Source: Leptospiraceae bacterium (lineage in GTDB: Bacteria > Spirochaetota > Leptospiria > Leptospirales > Leptonemataceae). Taken from it: a stretch of DNA of 64,000 nt. The notes under the pieces are model-generated. The model ran no database searches, had not been told where the DNA came from, and saw nothing but the letters and a program-made list of their open reading frames with translations. The stretch covers positions 1 through 64,000 of the forward strand of contig JAOACE010000009.1 of the NCBI GenBank assembly GCA_026418015.1, in the 5' to 3' direction. The position numbers and the translations under genes were made by a program. This document shows positions 8,844 through 18,334 of this stretch, one piece after another; within the stretch, counting starts at the first letter, position 1, and the number at the start of each line of letters is the position of its first letter.

Positions 8844-8901
8844 ATGATTTTGTGAATTAGCTATTACACATTTGATTTGATTATTAGAAAGAATAAAGAA
8901 A

Positions 8902-9015
8902 CCGACACCGTCCTGCTCTCCCACGCGGCGAACCGCGCAGTACCATCAGCGATACAGGGCTTAACTTCCGTGTTCGGGATGGGAACGTGTATATCCCCTG
9001 CTCTATCGGTGTCGT
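8902..9015 (-). rRNA. rrf: 5S ribosomal RNA, solitary gene
   Basis: Read on the minus strand the segment carries conserved 5S blocks: CCCATCCCGAAC, GAAGTTAAG and a terminal helix pairing CGACACCG with CGGTGTCG. Predicted length is about 114 nt, normal for 5S; ends are set from the terminal helix and may be off by one or two bases. The high GC contrasts sharply with flanking DNA. No 16S, 23S or tRNA lies next to it, as in Leptospira where rRNA genes are dispersed. A weak leftward promoter (TTGCAT about 30-35 bp upstream of the 5' end) is possible. Confidence 0.95.
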
Positions 9016-9138
9016 TAAGACCATTTTTATTTTGACCTGTAAAAATGCAAGAAAAAACTGAATTCATGATGGAACTTTTTATAAAAAATAAACCAATAAA
9101 TTCATTTTTTTTATCAATATAAATTTCATTACAACTTT

Positions 9139-10831: not shown

Positions 10832-11707
10832 ATGAGGCAAAAAAAAGACAAGAGTGACGTTTTTTTTCAAGTTCCAAGAGAATCGTTTAAAACTAGAGTA
10901 GGGAATATCGAACTACCAATATTATATTACGATGTAAATTTATTTTTAGCTTTTTATTTTGTTGAACCAGAAAGAGCAACTGCTGTTCTTCGTAATACAG
11001 ATTTGGAACCACTGCGCTTTTATAATGGAAAAAGTTTGGTTGCATTAGCTCTTTTCGAATACAAAGATACGACGGTGGGTATTTATAATGAAGTTGGACT
11101 TGCAATCGGTGTCAAAGAAAAAGAAAAAAAGGTATCTTTTCCTACGTTACAATTATTTAAACTTCTATTTAAACTAAACCCGCAAAATATTCCCATCGGT
11201 TTTTATATTTTACACTTACCAGTTACAACAAAAGAAGCGAATGTTGCTGGACGCGAAATCTGGGGATATCCTAAGTTTATAACCGAAATTCCCTTAAAGT
11301 TTGATCTAGAAAATTCTCACTTTGCTGGTTCTGTAAAAGATCCGGATAACAAAAAATCTATCTTCGAGCTTGAAGGAAGGCTAAAAAAAGGAATTCCTAT
11401 TCCAGCATTCGATTTAATTACTTATACATATTACGAAAACCAACTGATTCGGACAATTATCGATGTTTCTGGTAATTTTAATTTTTCTTTTACATCAACC
11501 TTTCGATTAAGAAATGTAGAATCGAATCATCCTATGGCAGAAACTATCAAAGCATTGGGAATCGAAAATCAAGATTCTTATGCTGCAATGTACAGCACAA
11601 ATTGGCAATCGCGATTAAACAAAGGCAACTTTGTATTAGAAAGCAAAGTGTACCGTCACCCTATAAAAGTTATCAAAAGTAAAAGCAAAGCAAAAATTAA
11701 GCGATAG
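10832..11707 (+). CDS. acetoacetate decarboxylase family protein
   Basis: A soluble 291-residue protein of the acetoacetate decarboxylase superfamily. The conserved stretch GREIWGYPKF places K148 where the family's Schiff-base lysine normally sits, preceded by a typical IPIGFYILHLPVTT strand. Start follows AGGAG. True acetoacetate decarboxylases make acetone and CO2, but many family members have other aldolase or dehydratase roles, so the reaction is uncertain. It has its own promoter and converges on the inositol-phosphatase-like gene with an 11-bp overlap. No ketone-body genes are near. Confidence 0.85.
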   Translation: MRQKKDKSDVFFQVPRESFKTRVGNIELPILYYDVNLFLAFYFVEPERATAVLRNTDLEPLRFYNGKSLVALALFEYKDTTVGIYNEVGLAIGVKEKEKKVSFPTLQLFKLLFKLNPQNIPIGFYILHLPVTTKEANVAGREIWGYPKFITEIPLKFDLENSHFAGSVKDPDNKKSIFELEGRLKKGIPIPAFDLITYTYYENQLIRTIIDVSGNFNFSFTSTFRLRNVESNHPMAETIKALGIENQDSYAAMYSTNWQSRLNKGNFVLESKVYRHPIKVIKSKSKAKIKR

Positions 11708-12551
11708 AATTTAATATTAACTCTACAAAGGATTGATGAATATTCCGATTGGTGGCAATCATCAAAGAATCGCCAGGTTGGTATTCTTCCATTCTTTCGT
11801 TAACAATGATGCCACCAGCTTCTTTTAAAATGATACTTCCCGCTGCTGTATCCCAGGGAGATAAGTTCCATTCGTAATGTGCATCAAACCTACCTTCTGC
11901 CACCCAACAAAGATCTAGTGCAGCAGAACCTGTTCTTCTTATACCCCTACAGTTTTTTAAAACCATTTGGAAGGTTTTCATTAATTGATCCAACATTTCT
12001 AATCGATTGTATGGAAAACCTGTAACAATTAAAGATTTCTTTAAATCGGATGTCTGCGAGACAAAAATTCTTTTATGATTTTTATAAGCACCATCGTTGT
12101 AAACTGCTCGATATAGATCATTCAAAGCAGGAATATAAACAATACCACCCACAGGAATATCTTTATATAGAATGCCCACAGAGATAGAAAATAAAGGTAA
12201 ATGATGGGAATAGTTAATTGTACCATCGATGGGATCAATACACCAAGTAAATTCCGAAGCTTTTAAATGAATCGAAGGAATATGATTGACGATGGGTTCT
12301 TTTTTCCCCGTTTCTTCGGAAAGAATCGAATCCATCGGAAATCGACTCTGCAGAAAATGAACGATGGTTTGTTCGGAAATATAGTCCGCTTTTGTTACTA
12401 AATCTAATTCATTGGATTTATACTGAACTTCTAAATCGTCTTCCCACAATTCCAACAAGATTCGTTTTAGTTCCGGAAGCAATCCTTCGAATACATCGAG
12501 TCTTTTGTAAACTTCTTCTTTTAGGTTATAGGGTAACACAACGTTTTTCAT
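11697..12551 (-). CDS. inositol monophosphatase family protein
   Basis: A Mg-dependent, Li-sensitive-type sugar phosphatase. It shows the metal-binding motifs EETGK (first metal Glu), the WCIDPIDGTINY block with two catalytic Asp, and WDTAAGSIILKEAGG near the C-terminus. I use the internal ATG, which gives 284 residues and starts 10 nt after the FmdB-like gene; a GTG 45 bp further upstream would overlap that gene. It is the last gene of the operon headed by the Pup-like protein. Substrate could be inositol-1-phosphate, a nucleotide or PAP; sequence alone does not tell. Confidence 0.9.
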   Translation of the reverse strand: MKNVVLPYNLKEEVYKRLDVFEGLLPELKRILLELWEDDLEVQYKSNELDLVTKADYISEQTIVHFLQSRFPMDSILSEETGKKEPIVNHIPSIHLKASEFTWCIDPIDGTINYSHHLPLFSISVGILYKDIPVGGIVYIPALNDLYRAVYNDGAYKNHKRIFVSQTSDLKKSLIVTGFPYNRLEMLDQLMKTFQMVLKNCRGIRRTGSAALDLCWVAEGRFDAHYEWNLSPWDTAAGSIILKEAGGIIVNERMEEYQPGDSLMIATNRNIHQSFVELILNSIA

Positions 12552-12561
12552 AATTTGATGG

Positions 12562-12780
12562 TTAATTATCGGAAAAACACCTACAATGTTCTCCACATCC
12601 TATATATTCTTTTTGATTATGAACAGATGTATTAACTGCAATAGGTTGAAAATATCTTTGAGTATTGTAAGAATTACATTGATTACATTTTACTTTAACG
12701 CCATTTTCTATATCTTTTACAGAGAGCTTTATTGTAGTAATATTTTTACAGTCAAGGCATTCAAAATCATAGTAAGGCAT
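12562..12780 (-). CDS. FmdB-type zinc ribbon protein
   Basis: The 72-residue protein starts MPYYDFECLDCKN, the FmdB-family opening, with a four-Cys zinc ribbon (C9, C12, C32 and C35). A Cys/His-rich tail CGEHCRCF is typical of the family. The family is widespread and of unclear function, named after a suggested regulator of formamidase genes. It lies 23 nt after the PafA/Dop-like gene and 10 nt before the phosphatase gene, so it belongs to the same transcript and might assist or regulate the modification system; that link is inference. Confidence 0.85.
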   Translation of the reverse strand: MPYYDFECLDCKNITTIKLSVKDIENGVKVKCNQCNSYNTQRYFQPIAVNTSVHNQKEYIGCGEHCRCFSDN

Positions 12781-12803: not shown

Positions 12804-14633
12804 TTATGTGTCAATTCTTCTTTTTTTGAAATCTTCTAATTGTATGATTTTTGATATTGCACCACTACCAATCTTAACATAGTTCCAAGAGATTTGAATA
12901 TTTTCGTAAGATTGATGCATACGTTTAATGATAGAACTACGAATTTTTGCAAGTTCACTACTTTTAGGAGGATTTTTGATGGAATATTCTATTTCTTGTT
13001 CCGAAAAAAAGCGCTTCGTTAAATTTGCCTTTTCTAATTCGTAATAATATCCTTCGTATAGATCGTGATATTTAATATCGATAACCTTTAATAGTTCATA
13101 ATGTTTCAAATAATCTTCCTGAGTTATACCATCGATATCTAAGACATTATTATTAGACTTAAGGTTTTTTTCTTTGATTAAGGTTTGATTGATTAAAATT
13201 CGTTTGGTAATCCAATCAATTTTTCCAAATAATTTTTCTGGTTCTTCTTTTAAAAGATTTAAGGTATGTTCCCATTCTTGTACAATTAAATGATATTCTG
13301 GTTCTACAATGGTTTTTTGTTTTAAATATTCTTTTGTTTGATTTAAATACCAATATTGGATTTCCAATGCTGTTAAACTCGAAGGTAGTTTTAATTTTTT
13401 ATAATTTTTTATTTCTAATTTGGCTGTTCGATAGTTTGGATATTGATTGATAGTTTTTAATGCTTTGATAGGAAAACGAATTTGTGGTGTTTCTTTTAAA
13501 AAACCTTCGTCAATCATATCCATTAATAAATAAAGAGGTCCAACTTTTAATAACTCGGAAACTTGGCACATACAAGAATCCGACATACCAATCTGAAACC
13601 TTTGCACTTTATTAAACAATTCTTTTAAATAATGAAATTCAAAACGAAATAAGAAAAGAACACTTAGATAAGTTAACTTCATCAAATTACCTGAGTCATA
13701 AATACATCGATCTGCGGGGAAATTGGATGTTCTAGAAACCCTTTTTGTGAACATTGTTTTTTCGGATAAATAAAACATACCCCTGTTATTGATACTACCA
13801 CTTCCAGTAAAAAGAATCCGCGTAACAATAAATGCAAGTAGATGTTTTTTGTATTCTCTAAACGTAAAATATTTTAGCACAAAAACATAAGGAACAATCA
13901 GAGGAAAAGACAAAATAATTTCTGTAAAAGTTAATGCTATCCCCGATAATCTTTCAAAGTGATAAAAAAAGCTTTTATGATTCGGATAAAAAAATACTTC
14001 ATAACTGTTAAATTTATGATTTCTTTCTCGAAACCAGGCAAGATAGATTAAGTAGAAAATATAGAAAAAAATCATTAAAACACTCTGAAAAAACAAAATA
14101 AAAAACGATGCTATAAACACAAAAAAGATGTATAATGCTAGCAATGGTAAATAAAATACCAAAAACAACCGATAAAAGAATAAAAATATTCCCTTTGCAA
14201 TCAACCCCGAATAATTTTCTTGGGCGCCGTAAATGTTATCATAAGCATCTTTGCAGTTTTTAATTAAACTTATAGTAGATTTAGAAAATAACCTAGATTG
14301 ATTTTGATTTAATTTTTCTAATGTTTGTTGTAATAACTTGTCAATGGATCGTTGATATAGGATTAATTCTAGGGGGGATGTGCACTCTGGCGTTGCTGCT
14401 TCTAATAGACCACTATCAATATGATGAGAGAGGCTTTCGTAGCAGAAAGCACTCCCATTTTCCAAAAATATTTGTTTCCATTTTAGAATGGAAGTACCAT
14501 CAGCTATTTTAACAAAAGAAGGTATAACTTTTATAATTAAATCGTATAATACTCGATTATCTTGTTTTTCAGAAATAAAAGAAGAATAACGAATGGCATA
14601 TTCTGTTTCTAATCCAACGATTCTTTTTTTCAT
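12804..14633 (-). CDS. PafA/Dop-family Pup ligase/depupylase homologue with an inserted membrane domain
   Basis: PafA and Dop are glutamine-synthetase-like enzymes that attach or remove the modifier Pup on lysines using ATP. Family blocks are present in order: RIVGLETEY (4-12), GLLEAATPEC (75-84), SLIKNCKDAYDNIYGAQENY (122-141), FIVTRILFTGSGS (268-280), a DSCMCQVSELLKVG block (352-365), IDWITKR, and IDIKYHDL. At 609 residues it is about 100-150 longer than PafA. The excess is mostly a segment at about 145-262 with three or four hydrophobic helices, absent from classical PafA/Dop. The position of the catalytic Asp appears to be E66. The Pup-like gene ends 21 nt upstream. Ligase or depupylase direction cannot be decided. 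Confidence 0.85.
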   Translation of the reverse strand: MKKRIVGLETEYAIRYSSFISEKQDNRVLYDLIIKVIPSFVKIADGTSILKWKQIFLENGSAFCYESLSHHIDSGLLEAATPECTSPLELILYQRSIDKLLQQTLEKLNQNQSRLFSKSTISLIKNCKDAYDNIYGAQENYSGLIAKGIFLFFYRLFLVFYLPLLALYIFFVFIASFFILFFQSVLMIFFYIFYLIYLAWFRERNHKFNSYEVFFYPNHKSFFYHFERLSGIALTFTEIILSFPLIVPYVFVLKYFTFREYKKHLLAFIVTRILFTGSGSINNRGMFYLSEKTMFTKRVSRTSNFPADRCIYDSGNLMKLTYLSVLFLFRFEFHYLKELFNKVQRFQIGMSDSCMCQVSELLKVGPLYLLMDMIDEGFLKETPQIRFPIKALKTINQYPNYRTAKLEIKNYKKLKLPSSLTALEIQYWYLNQTKEYLKQKTIVEPEYHLIVQEWEHTLNLLKEEPEKLFGKIDWITKRILINQTLIKEKNLKSNNNVLDIDGITQEDYLKHYELLKVIDIKYHDLYEGYYYELEKANLTKRFFSEQEIEYSIKNPPKSSELAKIRSSIIKRMHQSYENIQISWNYVKIGSGAISKIIQLEDFKKRRIDT

Positions 14634-14654
14634 GAATCATATTGAACGTTTTAA

Positions 14655-14825
14655 TTATTCCCCGCCTGCTTCTACTTTTGTGTCTTCTAAATATCGGGAA
14701 GTTTCTTTTTTTGCATCATAATAAATAAACTCTAATGTATTAGAAATTCTATCTTCTATGGTTTGGATTTCTGGAGCTTGTACTTTATTTTCTTGAACCA
14801 AATAACTTTTTGCAGTATTTGTCAT
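14655..14825 (-). CDS. Pup-like small modifier protein ending in Gly-Gly-Glu
   Basis: The 56-residue protein starts at an ATG preceded by AAGGAGG five bases upstream and a near-consensus promoter. A longer reading frame would begin inside that promoter and is rejected. The sequence is charged, predicted helical or disordered, without cysteine or membrane segment, and ends EAGGE. Mycobacterial Pup is about 64 residues and ends GGQ, deamidated to GGE before ligation; here Glu is genome-encoded so no deamidation would be needed. It is immediately followed by the PafA/Dop-like gene. Sequence similarity to known Pup or UBact outside the tail is weak; the call rests on size, tail and neighbour. Confidence 0.78.
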   Translation of the reverse strand: MTNTAKSYLVQENKVQAPEIQTIEDRISNTLEFIYYDAKKETSRYLEDTKVEAGGE

Positions 14826-14853
14826 ATTGTCCTCCTTCGGATATCGTAAATCA

Positions 14854-14882
14854 AATATAAAAAGTTTTTTAAAATCTGTCAA
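14854..14882 (-). promoter_or_regulatory. near-consensus sigma-70 promoter of the Pup-like operon
   Basis: On the minus strand TTGACA, a 17-bp spacer and TATATT form one of the best promoter matches in the window. The start site would fall about 20 nt before the Pup-like ATG, with AAGGAGG in the leader, which predicts strong expression. Confidence 0.75.
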
Positions 14883-15807: not shown

Positions 15808-15877
15808 AAAAGCCTATAATTAAAAATCGCTTTTAACTTGACACTTGAAAAATAAAAAAACATAATTCATTTTGAAT

Positions 15878-18334
15878 ATGGAAGATTCAGTTTTAAAAAA
15901 AGACATAAATTCAGGTGTTGTAATCATTGGGGGAGGACCAATGGGCTTTGCTATAAGCGATATCATTTCGAAAAATTTAAAAGAATTTTATTTTTGGTTC
16001 CCCGATACTTTATCTTATCGTAAATGGAAAAATGAGAAAATTGTTCAAATCAATGATTTTGAATTTATCATACCGAACAATATTAAGTTTGTTACAGGAT
16101 ATGATTTTTTTAAAGATCGTTCGTTGATTTTAATCATTGCATTACCATCTCGTCAGTTCGAAGAAGTGATAGAAATGATATTCGAACATTTAAACCCTAA
16201 CAATCATTATGATTTTATTCTAATTTCGAAAGGTTTTTTAAATTATCATAATAGAAGCAAATATAAGGTATATGTATTTCATCAGATGCTCCAAGAATTA
16301 CAAAAACAGCATAAGATCGAAGGTCATTTAGCAGTAATGGCAGGACCTTCTTTACTTTATGATATTGTCCAAAAAAATTATATTCTTTTCGATGTTGGTT
16401 TAGATTCAGTAGAATTTTATCAACTTATAAAAGAAATCTTTCATCAACCTTTCATTAACTTTTCTTCGCACAATGATTTATTTTCTGCAGAATTAGGGGC
16501 AATTCTAAAAAATCCTATGGCAATTTTGATTGGAATGGTTTCTGCACTTCCCAACGTCGGTTCCAGTTTATTGGGAGAATTAGCAGCAAAAGCCTTTTTG
16601 GAAATGTTCAACTTCGCAAAAACCTTGGGAGCAAACGAAACAATTTTATTGGGGCGAAGTGGCATATCTGATTTTCTTGGTACAGTTTTTAGTCCTTATA
16701 GCCGCAACAGAACTTATGGCAGACAATTTACAGAAAAATTATTAAAGGGCTCGAATAAACCAACATTTTTAGATCAAATTCAACTATTTCTTACACCAAC
16801 GTATTATATCGAAAAAGAGGTTTTATCGAGTCAAAATTTAGCAGAAGGTGGTCTTGCGATATCTCCTATTATAGAAATTGCAAAAGAAAAAAACATTCAA
16901 GTGCCATTATATAAAATACTTTATAATATTTTTTTAAGAAAAAATTCACCAGAAGATGTTCTATCGTTACTAATAGAAAGAGAAATTCAACAATCGAAAA
17001 TCCCTGTCCTAAGAAAAAAAGGAAAAATAGAAATTGTAGCCTCCGGTAGAATGATAGCGAAAGCCCTAAAAGATAGAGTCTATAAAAAAATCCTTTTTAC
17101 CCCCGGAATGCAAAATAGAATTAAAAGACAAGCATCACACATTATTTCTTCTCTCGAAAAAAGAATCATCAAAGCGAAAAGACAAAAATTAACCAAAGAT
17201 CAAAACAATTTCGAAACAGAACTAAAATTATGGCAAAAGATACAAACATGTAAGCCCGAAGAAGAACCCTATTACATAGAAAAAATCATTGAGTTTTACA
17301 TCGATAACATGGTGGATTATTTTTTAGCACCAATACGAACTTTAATTATCTATTTAGTTATGCCTTTTCGGTTGATTTTTGGAAAATTTCAGCGTGGTTC
17401 AATTAGTCCTTTCGTCGGCGGACATCTCGAAGAAGTAAAAAACGTTATCAATACTTATCCCGTATTCTATGCACCAACCCATAGAACTCATTTAGATTCC
17501 GTCGAATTAGCCTATGCATTATATTTTAAAGGATTTCCCATTCCAAGAGCAGCAGCAGCAAGCGTACTGATGTCTAACCCCTTGTGGGGAGCTTTTTTAC
17601 GTTCCTTAGGTGCATATGTAGTAGATCGAGAAAACACCCGCAACATTTTATATTTAGAGGTTCTAACTCAATATACGACTATGATGTTAGAATCCGGCAT
17701 TCCAGCATTAGCATATCCAGAAGGTACAAGAAGTAGAAACGGAAAATTTCAGCAAATCAAGACTGGGTTGTTATCTACAGCCATCGATGCATACAGAGAA
17801 TCTGGAAGAGAAATTGCCATCATTCCTATTGCAATATCTCATCAGTGGGTGCCAGAAGACCTATACTTTACTGGACAAGCAAAAGATACAAGCTTTATTA
17901 CTTATGGTTATAGACGTGGTAGGGTTTATTTTGATTTTGGAAAACCCATCCTTGTTTCTAATTTTGTAAAATCAGATGAACCTACCTCCGAAATAGCAAA
18001 AATCATCTTAAAAGAATGGAAATATCATTTTAGAGTACAAGAGCATTTTGTTATATGTTATTTATTGTACAATCATTTAGGAAAAGACAACAAAGAAATC
18101 TTATTAAAAGAAATTAAAAATTTTGTGGATAACTATCCCGGCTCGATGGTAACAAGGGATATCAACAAAATATACAAAAAAGGGATAAATTTACTAAAAA
18201 AACGAGATATCATCAGAGAAACGAGCAATGGATTTGATATTATCAATCCATCACTATTAGAGTATTATGGCAATATGATTCCAGAATTTGACGAAGAAGA
18301 CATAGAATACATCAAAAAACATGAAAAAAATTAA
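15878..18334 (+). CDS. glycerol-3-phosphate dehydrogenase-acyltransferase fusion
   Basis: The N-terminal part (about 1-345) is GpsA-like: nucleotide motif GGGPMG, AGPSLLYDI, GAILKNPMAI and the SRNRTYG loop. This would reduce dihydroxyacetone phosphate to glycerol-3-phosphate. A basic helical linker follows. From about residue 470 there is a PlsB/PlsC-type acyltransferase with HRTHLD (HX4D motif, about residue 535) and PEGTRSR near 614. One 818-residue polypeptide may therefore make and acylate glycerol-3-phosphate, starting phospholipid synthesis. I use ATG rather than the TTG six bases earlier. The stop overlaps the next gene by 14 nt. Confidence 0.88.
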   Translation: MEDSVLKKDINSGVVIIGGGPMGFAISDIISKNLKEFYFWFPDTLSYRKWKNEKIVQINDFEFIIPNNIKFVTGYDFFKDRSLILIIALPSRQFEEVIEMIFEHLNPNNHYDFILISKGFLNYHNRSKYKVYVFHQMLQELQKQHKIEGHLAVMAGPSLLYDIVQKNYILFDVGLDSVEFYQLIKEIFHQPFINFSSHNDLFSAELGAILKNPMAILIGMVSALPNVGSSLLGELAAKAFLEMFNFAKTLGANETILLGRSGISDFLGTVFSPYSRNRTYGRQFTEKLLKGSNKPTFLDQIQLFLTPTYYIEKEVLSSQNLAEGGLAISPIIEIAKEKNIQVPLYKILYNIFLRKNSPEDVLSLLIEREIQQSKIPVLRKKGKIEIVASGRMIAKALKDRVYKKILFTPGMQNRIKRQASHIISSLEKRIIKAKRQKLTKDQNNFETELKLWQKIQTCKPEEEPYYIEKIIEFYIDNMVDYFLAPIRTLIIYLVMPFRLIFGKFQRGSISPFVGGHLEEVKNVINTYPVFYAPTHRTHLDSVELAYALYFKGFPIPRAAAASVLMSNPLWGAFLRSLGAYVVDRENTRNILYLEVLTQYTTMMLESGIPALAYPEGTRSRNGKFQQIKTGLLSTAIDAYRESGREIAIIPIAISHQWVPEDLYFTGQAKDTSFITYGYRRGRVYFDFGKPILVSNFVKSDEPTSEIAKIILKEWKYHFRVQEHFVICYLLYNHLGKDNKEILLKEIKNFVDNYPGSMVTRDINKIYKKGINLLKKRDIIRETSNGFDIINPSLLEYYGNMIPEFDEEDIEYIKKHEKN

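Follow-up and report, generated by a model that had tools for sequence, protein, structure and literature searches.

The stretch of Leptospiraceae bacterium DNA that we analyzed (64,000 nucleotides, here called the window) carries the gene for a 609-aa enzyme of the Pup-ligase family directly downstream of a gene for a 56-aa protein ending in Gly-Gly-Glu (GGE). The enzyme has the fold and active-site motifs of the family together with a hydrophobic insertion, its GGE partner is invariant among the loci that we compared, and the other components of a Pup pathway are absent from the genome. Pupylation is commonly seen as a proteasome tag of Actinobacteria. In our judgment the two genes probably encode a two-component, membrane-anchored, Dop-free and proteasome-independent pupylation-like system, for which we infer that the enzyme acts as a ligase, which acceptor it uses and what the outcome is. 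A preliminary description of the locus had proposed a membrane-localized, proteasome-independent pupylation-like system, and our results support that reading, with conjugation as its presumed activity. On the three points on which it had been staked beforehand, a family profile match is present, the tag is retained among relatives and the insertion is strongly hydrophobic.

Organization of the locus

All the features described at this locus lie on the minus strand. The small gene (14655 to 14825, stop codon included) encodes a protein with the C terminus EAGGE, whose Gly-Gly-Glu codons occupy 14658 to 14666. It is followed after 21 nt by the enzyme gene (12804 to 14633) and, 23 nt further on, by a gene for a 72-aa FmdB-type zinc-ribbon protein (12562 to 12780; TIGR02605, E 7e-9). 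An inositol monophosphatase (IMPase) family gene (11697 to 12596; PF00459, E 6e-62) is the last of this gene string. Direct reading revealed a Shine-Dalgarno sequence, AAGGAGG, at 14831 to 14837, 5 nt ahead of the ATG at 14825, which makes a strong ribosome-binding site for the small open reading frame (ORF). A consensus scan placed a promoter-like site, TTGACA-17-TATATT, at 14854 to 14882. The near-consensus match reported earlier stands, at 11 of 12 positions, but the number of such sites does not exceed that in shuffled sequence, and we therefore regard this promoter as suggestive. A longer, 75-aa version of the small ORF, starting from a TTG and reaching to 14882, is unlikely, as the TTG coincides with part of the promoter-like site and it is the ATG that is served by the strong ribosome-binding site.

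The FmdB-type gene is probably a member of the same operon as the enzyme gene. It also adjoins the enzyme gene at two related loci (L002 and L014) and is missing at a third (L003); this adjacency is confined to the window genus, as is that of the IMPase gene. The two genes are thus no conserved part of the tag-ligase system. The FmdB-type zinc ribbon may be of the same type as Mtb Ruc, a zinc-ribbon redox chaperone whose induction requires the Pup-proteasome system (PMC7448276). Elsewhere in the window we found a 5S rRNA gene (8900 to 9016) and no tRNA, 16S or 23S gene. An 820-aa ORF at 15872 to 18334 resembles, by eye, a fusion of glycerol-3-phosphate dehydrogenase with a PlsB/PlsC-type acyltransferase.

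The enzyme belongs to the Pup-ligase family

The Pfam Pup_ligase profile (PF03136) covers residues 4 to 586 of the enzyme with an E value of 6.4e-59 and a score of 200.5 bits, against a curated cut-off of 25. The enzyme scores under the equivalog cut-offs of both PafA (TIGR03686, 151.9 versus 551 bits) and Dop (TIGR03688, 115.5 versus 492 bits). A profile of the enzyme family compared with the PDB matched structures of Dop and PafA at E values of 1e-43 to 1e-37 (6.5e-43 for Dop and 2.2e-37 for PafA). The AlphaFold model, built on 47 relatives, reached a pLDDT of 91.6 and a pTM of 0.92, and the structures that it matched best were Dop, with a TMt of 0.81, and the PafA-Pup complex, with one of 0.76. 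The structural match to PafA/Dop had an E value of 1e-24 versus 2e-3 for GCS2, with gamma-glutamyl ligases far behind. The enzyme is a Pup-ligase family protein with the GS-type fold, and the PafA/Dop membership claimed for it at the outset is borne out by the PF03136 match and by the structural matches to Dop and PafA. It is the sole Pup_ligase copy in the window genome.

The active site shows both retained and altered elements. The strand-1 GxExE motif is kept in all 46 alignment rows that reach it, and the strand-4 Q-E-N and strand-6 QxxxxD motifs are near-invariant in the membrane class, the strand-4 His being replaced by Gln. Iyer, Burroughs and Aravind list [HQ]x[NH] and [QH]x4D as motifs of the family in the main text of their 2008 study (PMC2588565). 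Both variants, the strand-4 Gln and the strand-6 QxxxxD, are within what they allow for the family. When aligned with Nonomuraea PafA (YLD), the window enzyme has E66 (14436 to 14438, minus strand) where PafA and Dop have their catalytic Asp; Glu stands there in 46/47 relatives and Asp in one. From the alignment, Glu at this position appears to be a mark of the class. The NTRDEPH motif of PafA/Dop is lost, with a DSGNLxK-like stretch in its place. Given this loss and the replacement of the catalytic Asp by Glu, the chemistry of the enzyme could differ from that of PafA and Dop.

One might suppose that a single enzyme both attaches and removes the tag, as a combined PafA and Dop, or that it works mainly as a hydrolase or deamidase. 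There is one enzyme per genome, both the PafA and the Dop profiles match it, and the model resembles Dop slightly more than PafA. The number of residues that separate the strand-1 Glu from the catalytic residue speaks against this idea. It amounts to 51 to 59 in the class, compared with 45 in Nonomuraea PafA and 83 in Nonomuraea Dop, and in this loop-length comparison no Dop-loop was found in membrane-class enzymes. A GGE protein moreover requires no deamidation, and a hydrolase would lack a substrate if the genome has no ligase. We consider a combined or hydrolytic enzyme rather improbable.

A hydrophobic insertion follows strand 4

The preliminary description had placed an insertion with several membrane helices at about residues 145 to 262. 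Hydropathy and the AlphaFold model confirm a hydrophobic insertion, located at residues 142 to 257 (13863 to 14210, minus strand) and missing in actinobacterial PafA; the number of helices is to be given as 2 to 4. It directly follows the strand-4 motif (YGAQENY) and precedes the next core block (FREYKKHLLAFIVTR), a position where actinobacterial PafA has next to nothing and no strong hydrophobic stretch. Strong hydrophobic stretches occur inside the insertion region in 47/47 relatives, and 45 of these 47 have none elsewhere. Hydropathy gives 2 to 4 candidate membrane segments per member, four of them in the window enzyme, whereas AlphaFold models the insertion as two long helices (148 to 201 and 222 to 256). 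The predictions suggest 2 to 4 membrane spans, with the model favoring two long helices over four.

A GGE-ending protein accompanies the enzyme

We scanned one genome per species and obtained 48 loci; adding the window and a further locus of its genus gave 50 enzyme loci from Spirochaetota, Myxococcota, Planctomycetota and others. The arrangement first noticed in the window, a 56-residue GGE protein directly before the enzyme gene, holds up on its short gap and strong ribosome-binding site and recurs as a GGE-ending small ORF directly upstream of the enzyme in 49/50 loci. The remaining locus (L016) had looked like a case of tag loss. A genome-wide profile search (E 4e-11) recovered its GGE protein, MSAAQDKK...YLRETVVPEGGE, on another contig (L112:3000-3400), where the gene has its own ribosome-binding site. 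A GGE-ending small protein is thus present in all 50 loci or genomes with a membrane-class enzyme; no relative has lost it while keeping the enzyme, in line with the pairing proposed earlier, and a GGQ tail was never found in the small proteins of these loci. None of 3331 other small ORFs of related loci ends in GGE. The count of 47/48 upstream ORFs ending in GGE corresponds to a P of about 1e-139, uncorrected for the relatedness of the loci.

An alignment of 28 small proteins yielded the consensus VRxDAxxxPxxYLxETxVPxGGE, with the terminal GGE invariant (28/28). Profile evidence upholds the enzyme half of the original Pup and PafA/Dop assignment and fails to uphold the other half: PafA/Dop profiles match the enzyme, and no Pfam or NCBIfam Pup model matched any of the 28 small proteins. 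An hhalign comparison with Nonomuraea Pup was weak (probability 24.6), both proteins ending in a helix followed by a tail. A read-through Pup-enzyme model showed a helix at residues 23 to 48 (pLDDT 85 to 94) and a tail of low confidence (pLDDT about 54). The small protein resembles Pup in being short, in its helix with a free GG[E/Q]-type tail and in the location of its gene beside the ligase gene. These traits would make it Pup-like in its working; its membership in the Pup family is unsupported by the Pup models.

The mismatch with Pup profiles would also suit a small protein that is never conjugated and instead regulates, as its subunit, a membrane carboxylate-amine ligase acting on a small molecule, and the fold, being common to glutamate-cysteine ligases as well, agrees weakly with such a role. 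Yet the terminal GGE is strictly invariant, as a Pup ligase requires, and the structure is far nearer to PafA/Dop than to GCS2 by the E values given above. We give a regulatory subunit very little credence.

The genome lacks a proteasome, Mpa/ARC and Dop

The preliminary description had found no Mpa/ARC or proteasome gene in the window, and this holds across the window genome, which is 97.9% complete. Neither a 20S proteasome nor Mpa/ARC nor Dop was found there. A PF00227 proteasome match was judged from its 181-aa sequence to be HslV, the only form in which the proteasome fold occurs in this genome, and the best Mpa-like match was read as FtsH. Among 29 genomes of the membrane class, none has a 20S beta subunit above cut-off, and 28 lack the Mpa/ARC OB domain, whose one match is marginal; the C. 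glutamicum control was positive for this domain. A single Pup_ligase gene is present in 27/29 of these genomes, and the other two are Pirellulaceae with an additional UBact-like set.

Conjugates might still be passed to a general AAA+ protease (FtsH, ClpXP, HslUV or Lon), in which case the small protein would remain a degradation tag. FtsH and HslV are encoded in the genome, and FtsH, as a membrane protease, would be in the same compartment as the enzyme. To our knowledge, however, these general proteases are nearly universal, and no protease is genetically linked to the locus. Such a hand-off is possible, although we lean against it.

Phylogeny, distribution and gene neighborhood

In our tree the membrane class forms one clade versus PafA, Dop and UBact-type enzymes (support 100/99; some outgroup branches are very long), and it includes the Plesiocystis enzyme (L057). 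The window genus was placed nearest Candidatus Uabimicrobium and other non-Pirellulaceae lineages. Candidatus Uabimicrobium amorphum (L018), which has the membrane Pup ligase and a GGE protein, carries the nearest enzyme outside the window genus. The nearest named relative of that genus is Leptospiraceae bacterium KatS3mg129. All four sampled members of the window genus have the enzyme, which is absent from most of the remaining family and from all eight genomes sampled in the order's other family.

Two Pirellulaceae (L101:4513-10563 and L100:177-4619) carry a second locus, in which two PafA/Dop-like enzymes flank a small protein ending in RRNxSGQ. In L101, an AAA ATPase gene lies directly upstream of this UBact-like set, and E1-like and JAMM-like ORFs are also seen there by eye. 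The UBact-like enzymes of both genomes fall outside the membrane-class clade; the UBact-like set and the membrane system are distinct kinds that coexist in these two genomes.

Besides the tag gene, no neighbor gene common across phyla was found at the enzyme loci, which indicates that tag and ligase are the minimal unit. The lack of a conserved protein target adjoining these genes, together with a membrane insertion directly behind the core active-site strand, could mean that the small protein is attached, in an Atg8-like anchoring, to a lipid with an amine group such as phosphatidylethanolamine, and not to proteins. Characterized PafA enzymes, however, act on lysine, and we think lipid attachment highly improbable. 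Just as slim is the chance of a system that works without a proteasome and without an unfoldase of its own, and in which the membrane-embedded ligase attaches the GGE protein to lipids bearing an amine or to integral membrane proteins alone. If true, this would be the bacterial equivalent, built on a GS fold, of Atg8-type conjugation to lipids.

Proposed mechanism

In the tag-ligase system that we favor, the small protein would be produced directly in its GGE form, and because the tail is always Glu, a deamidase would be unnecessary. The membrane-inserted enzyme, with ATP, would phosphorylate the gamma-carboxylate of the terminal Glu and ligate the activated residue to an amine, most likely that of a lysine in a membrane or membrane-near protein. 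As proteasome, Mpa/ARC and Dop are lacking, the outcome would probably be regulation, relocalization or hand-off to another protease, and not breakdown by a proteasome; degradation would require a general protease, and regulation or relocalization is just as conceivable. The data point to a widespread Gram-negative branch that conserves just the tag and a membrane-inserted ligase. They pose the question of what role a Pup-like tag has when nothing dedicated degrades, unfolds or removes it. Reconstitution of the system requires two genes only. In laboratory E. coli, PafA together with PupE yields a pupylome (PMC7947786, citing Cerda-Maira 2011).

Comparison with known systems

The window system shares with the actinobacterial Pup system the fold, most active-site motifs and a small protein with a C-terminal GG[E/Q]. 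Unlike the actinobacterial Pup/PafA/Dop/Mpa-proteasome pathway, it has no Dop, Mpa or proteasome; its enzyme differs from actinobacterial PafA in the membrane insertion, the catalytic Glu for Asp and the strand-4 Gln for His, and its small protein, unlike actinobacterial Pup, is invisible to Pup profiles. UBact, described by Lehmann et al. in 2017, reportedly combines a Pup-like tag with PafA-type enzymes in Gram-negative phyla. The UBact-like sets have a tag ending in SGQ, two PafA/Dop-like enzymes and, at one of two loci, an ATPase, whereas the membrane system has GGE and one enzyme. C. glutamicum, which carries out pupylation without a 20S proteasome and has kept the unfoldase ARC and Dop (PMC8223512), is a precedent for proteasome-independent pupylation; in the window genome neither ARC nor Dop was found.

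Single-copy Planctomycetes homologues of PafA and Dop have served as an outgroup (PMC7947786), and there, too, one homologue of both enzymes is present per genome. They are probably the same enzymes as our membrane class. In its passages on the outgroup, that paper brings up no small protein and no membrane insertion.

The closest parallel was drawn in silico by Iyer et al., who described membrane-inserted Pup ligases from Plesiocystis and Rhodopirellula and, in the main text of their paper (PMC2588565), suggested that membrane proteins are pupylated. Our literature search, which covered neither most subscription journals nor preprints, found no experimental study of such ligases. Like the systems of 2008, ours has a Pup-like neighbor, a transmembrane insertion directly after core strand 4 and no linked proteasome genes. 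The enzymes in that main text have four predicted spans, compared with the two long AlphaFold helices here, and the membrane-protein neighbor reported there is not general among our loci. The window system is a further case of the architecture predicted in 2008, not a new kind. New are the Spirochaetota host, a phylum unmentioned in that main text, and three features likewise unreported there, namely the invariant GGE pairing, the catalytic Asp-to-Glu change and the absence of Dop, Mpa and proteasome throughout the genome; also new is that two Pirellulaceae have the membrane system side by side with a UBact-like set.
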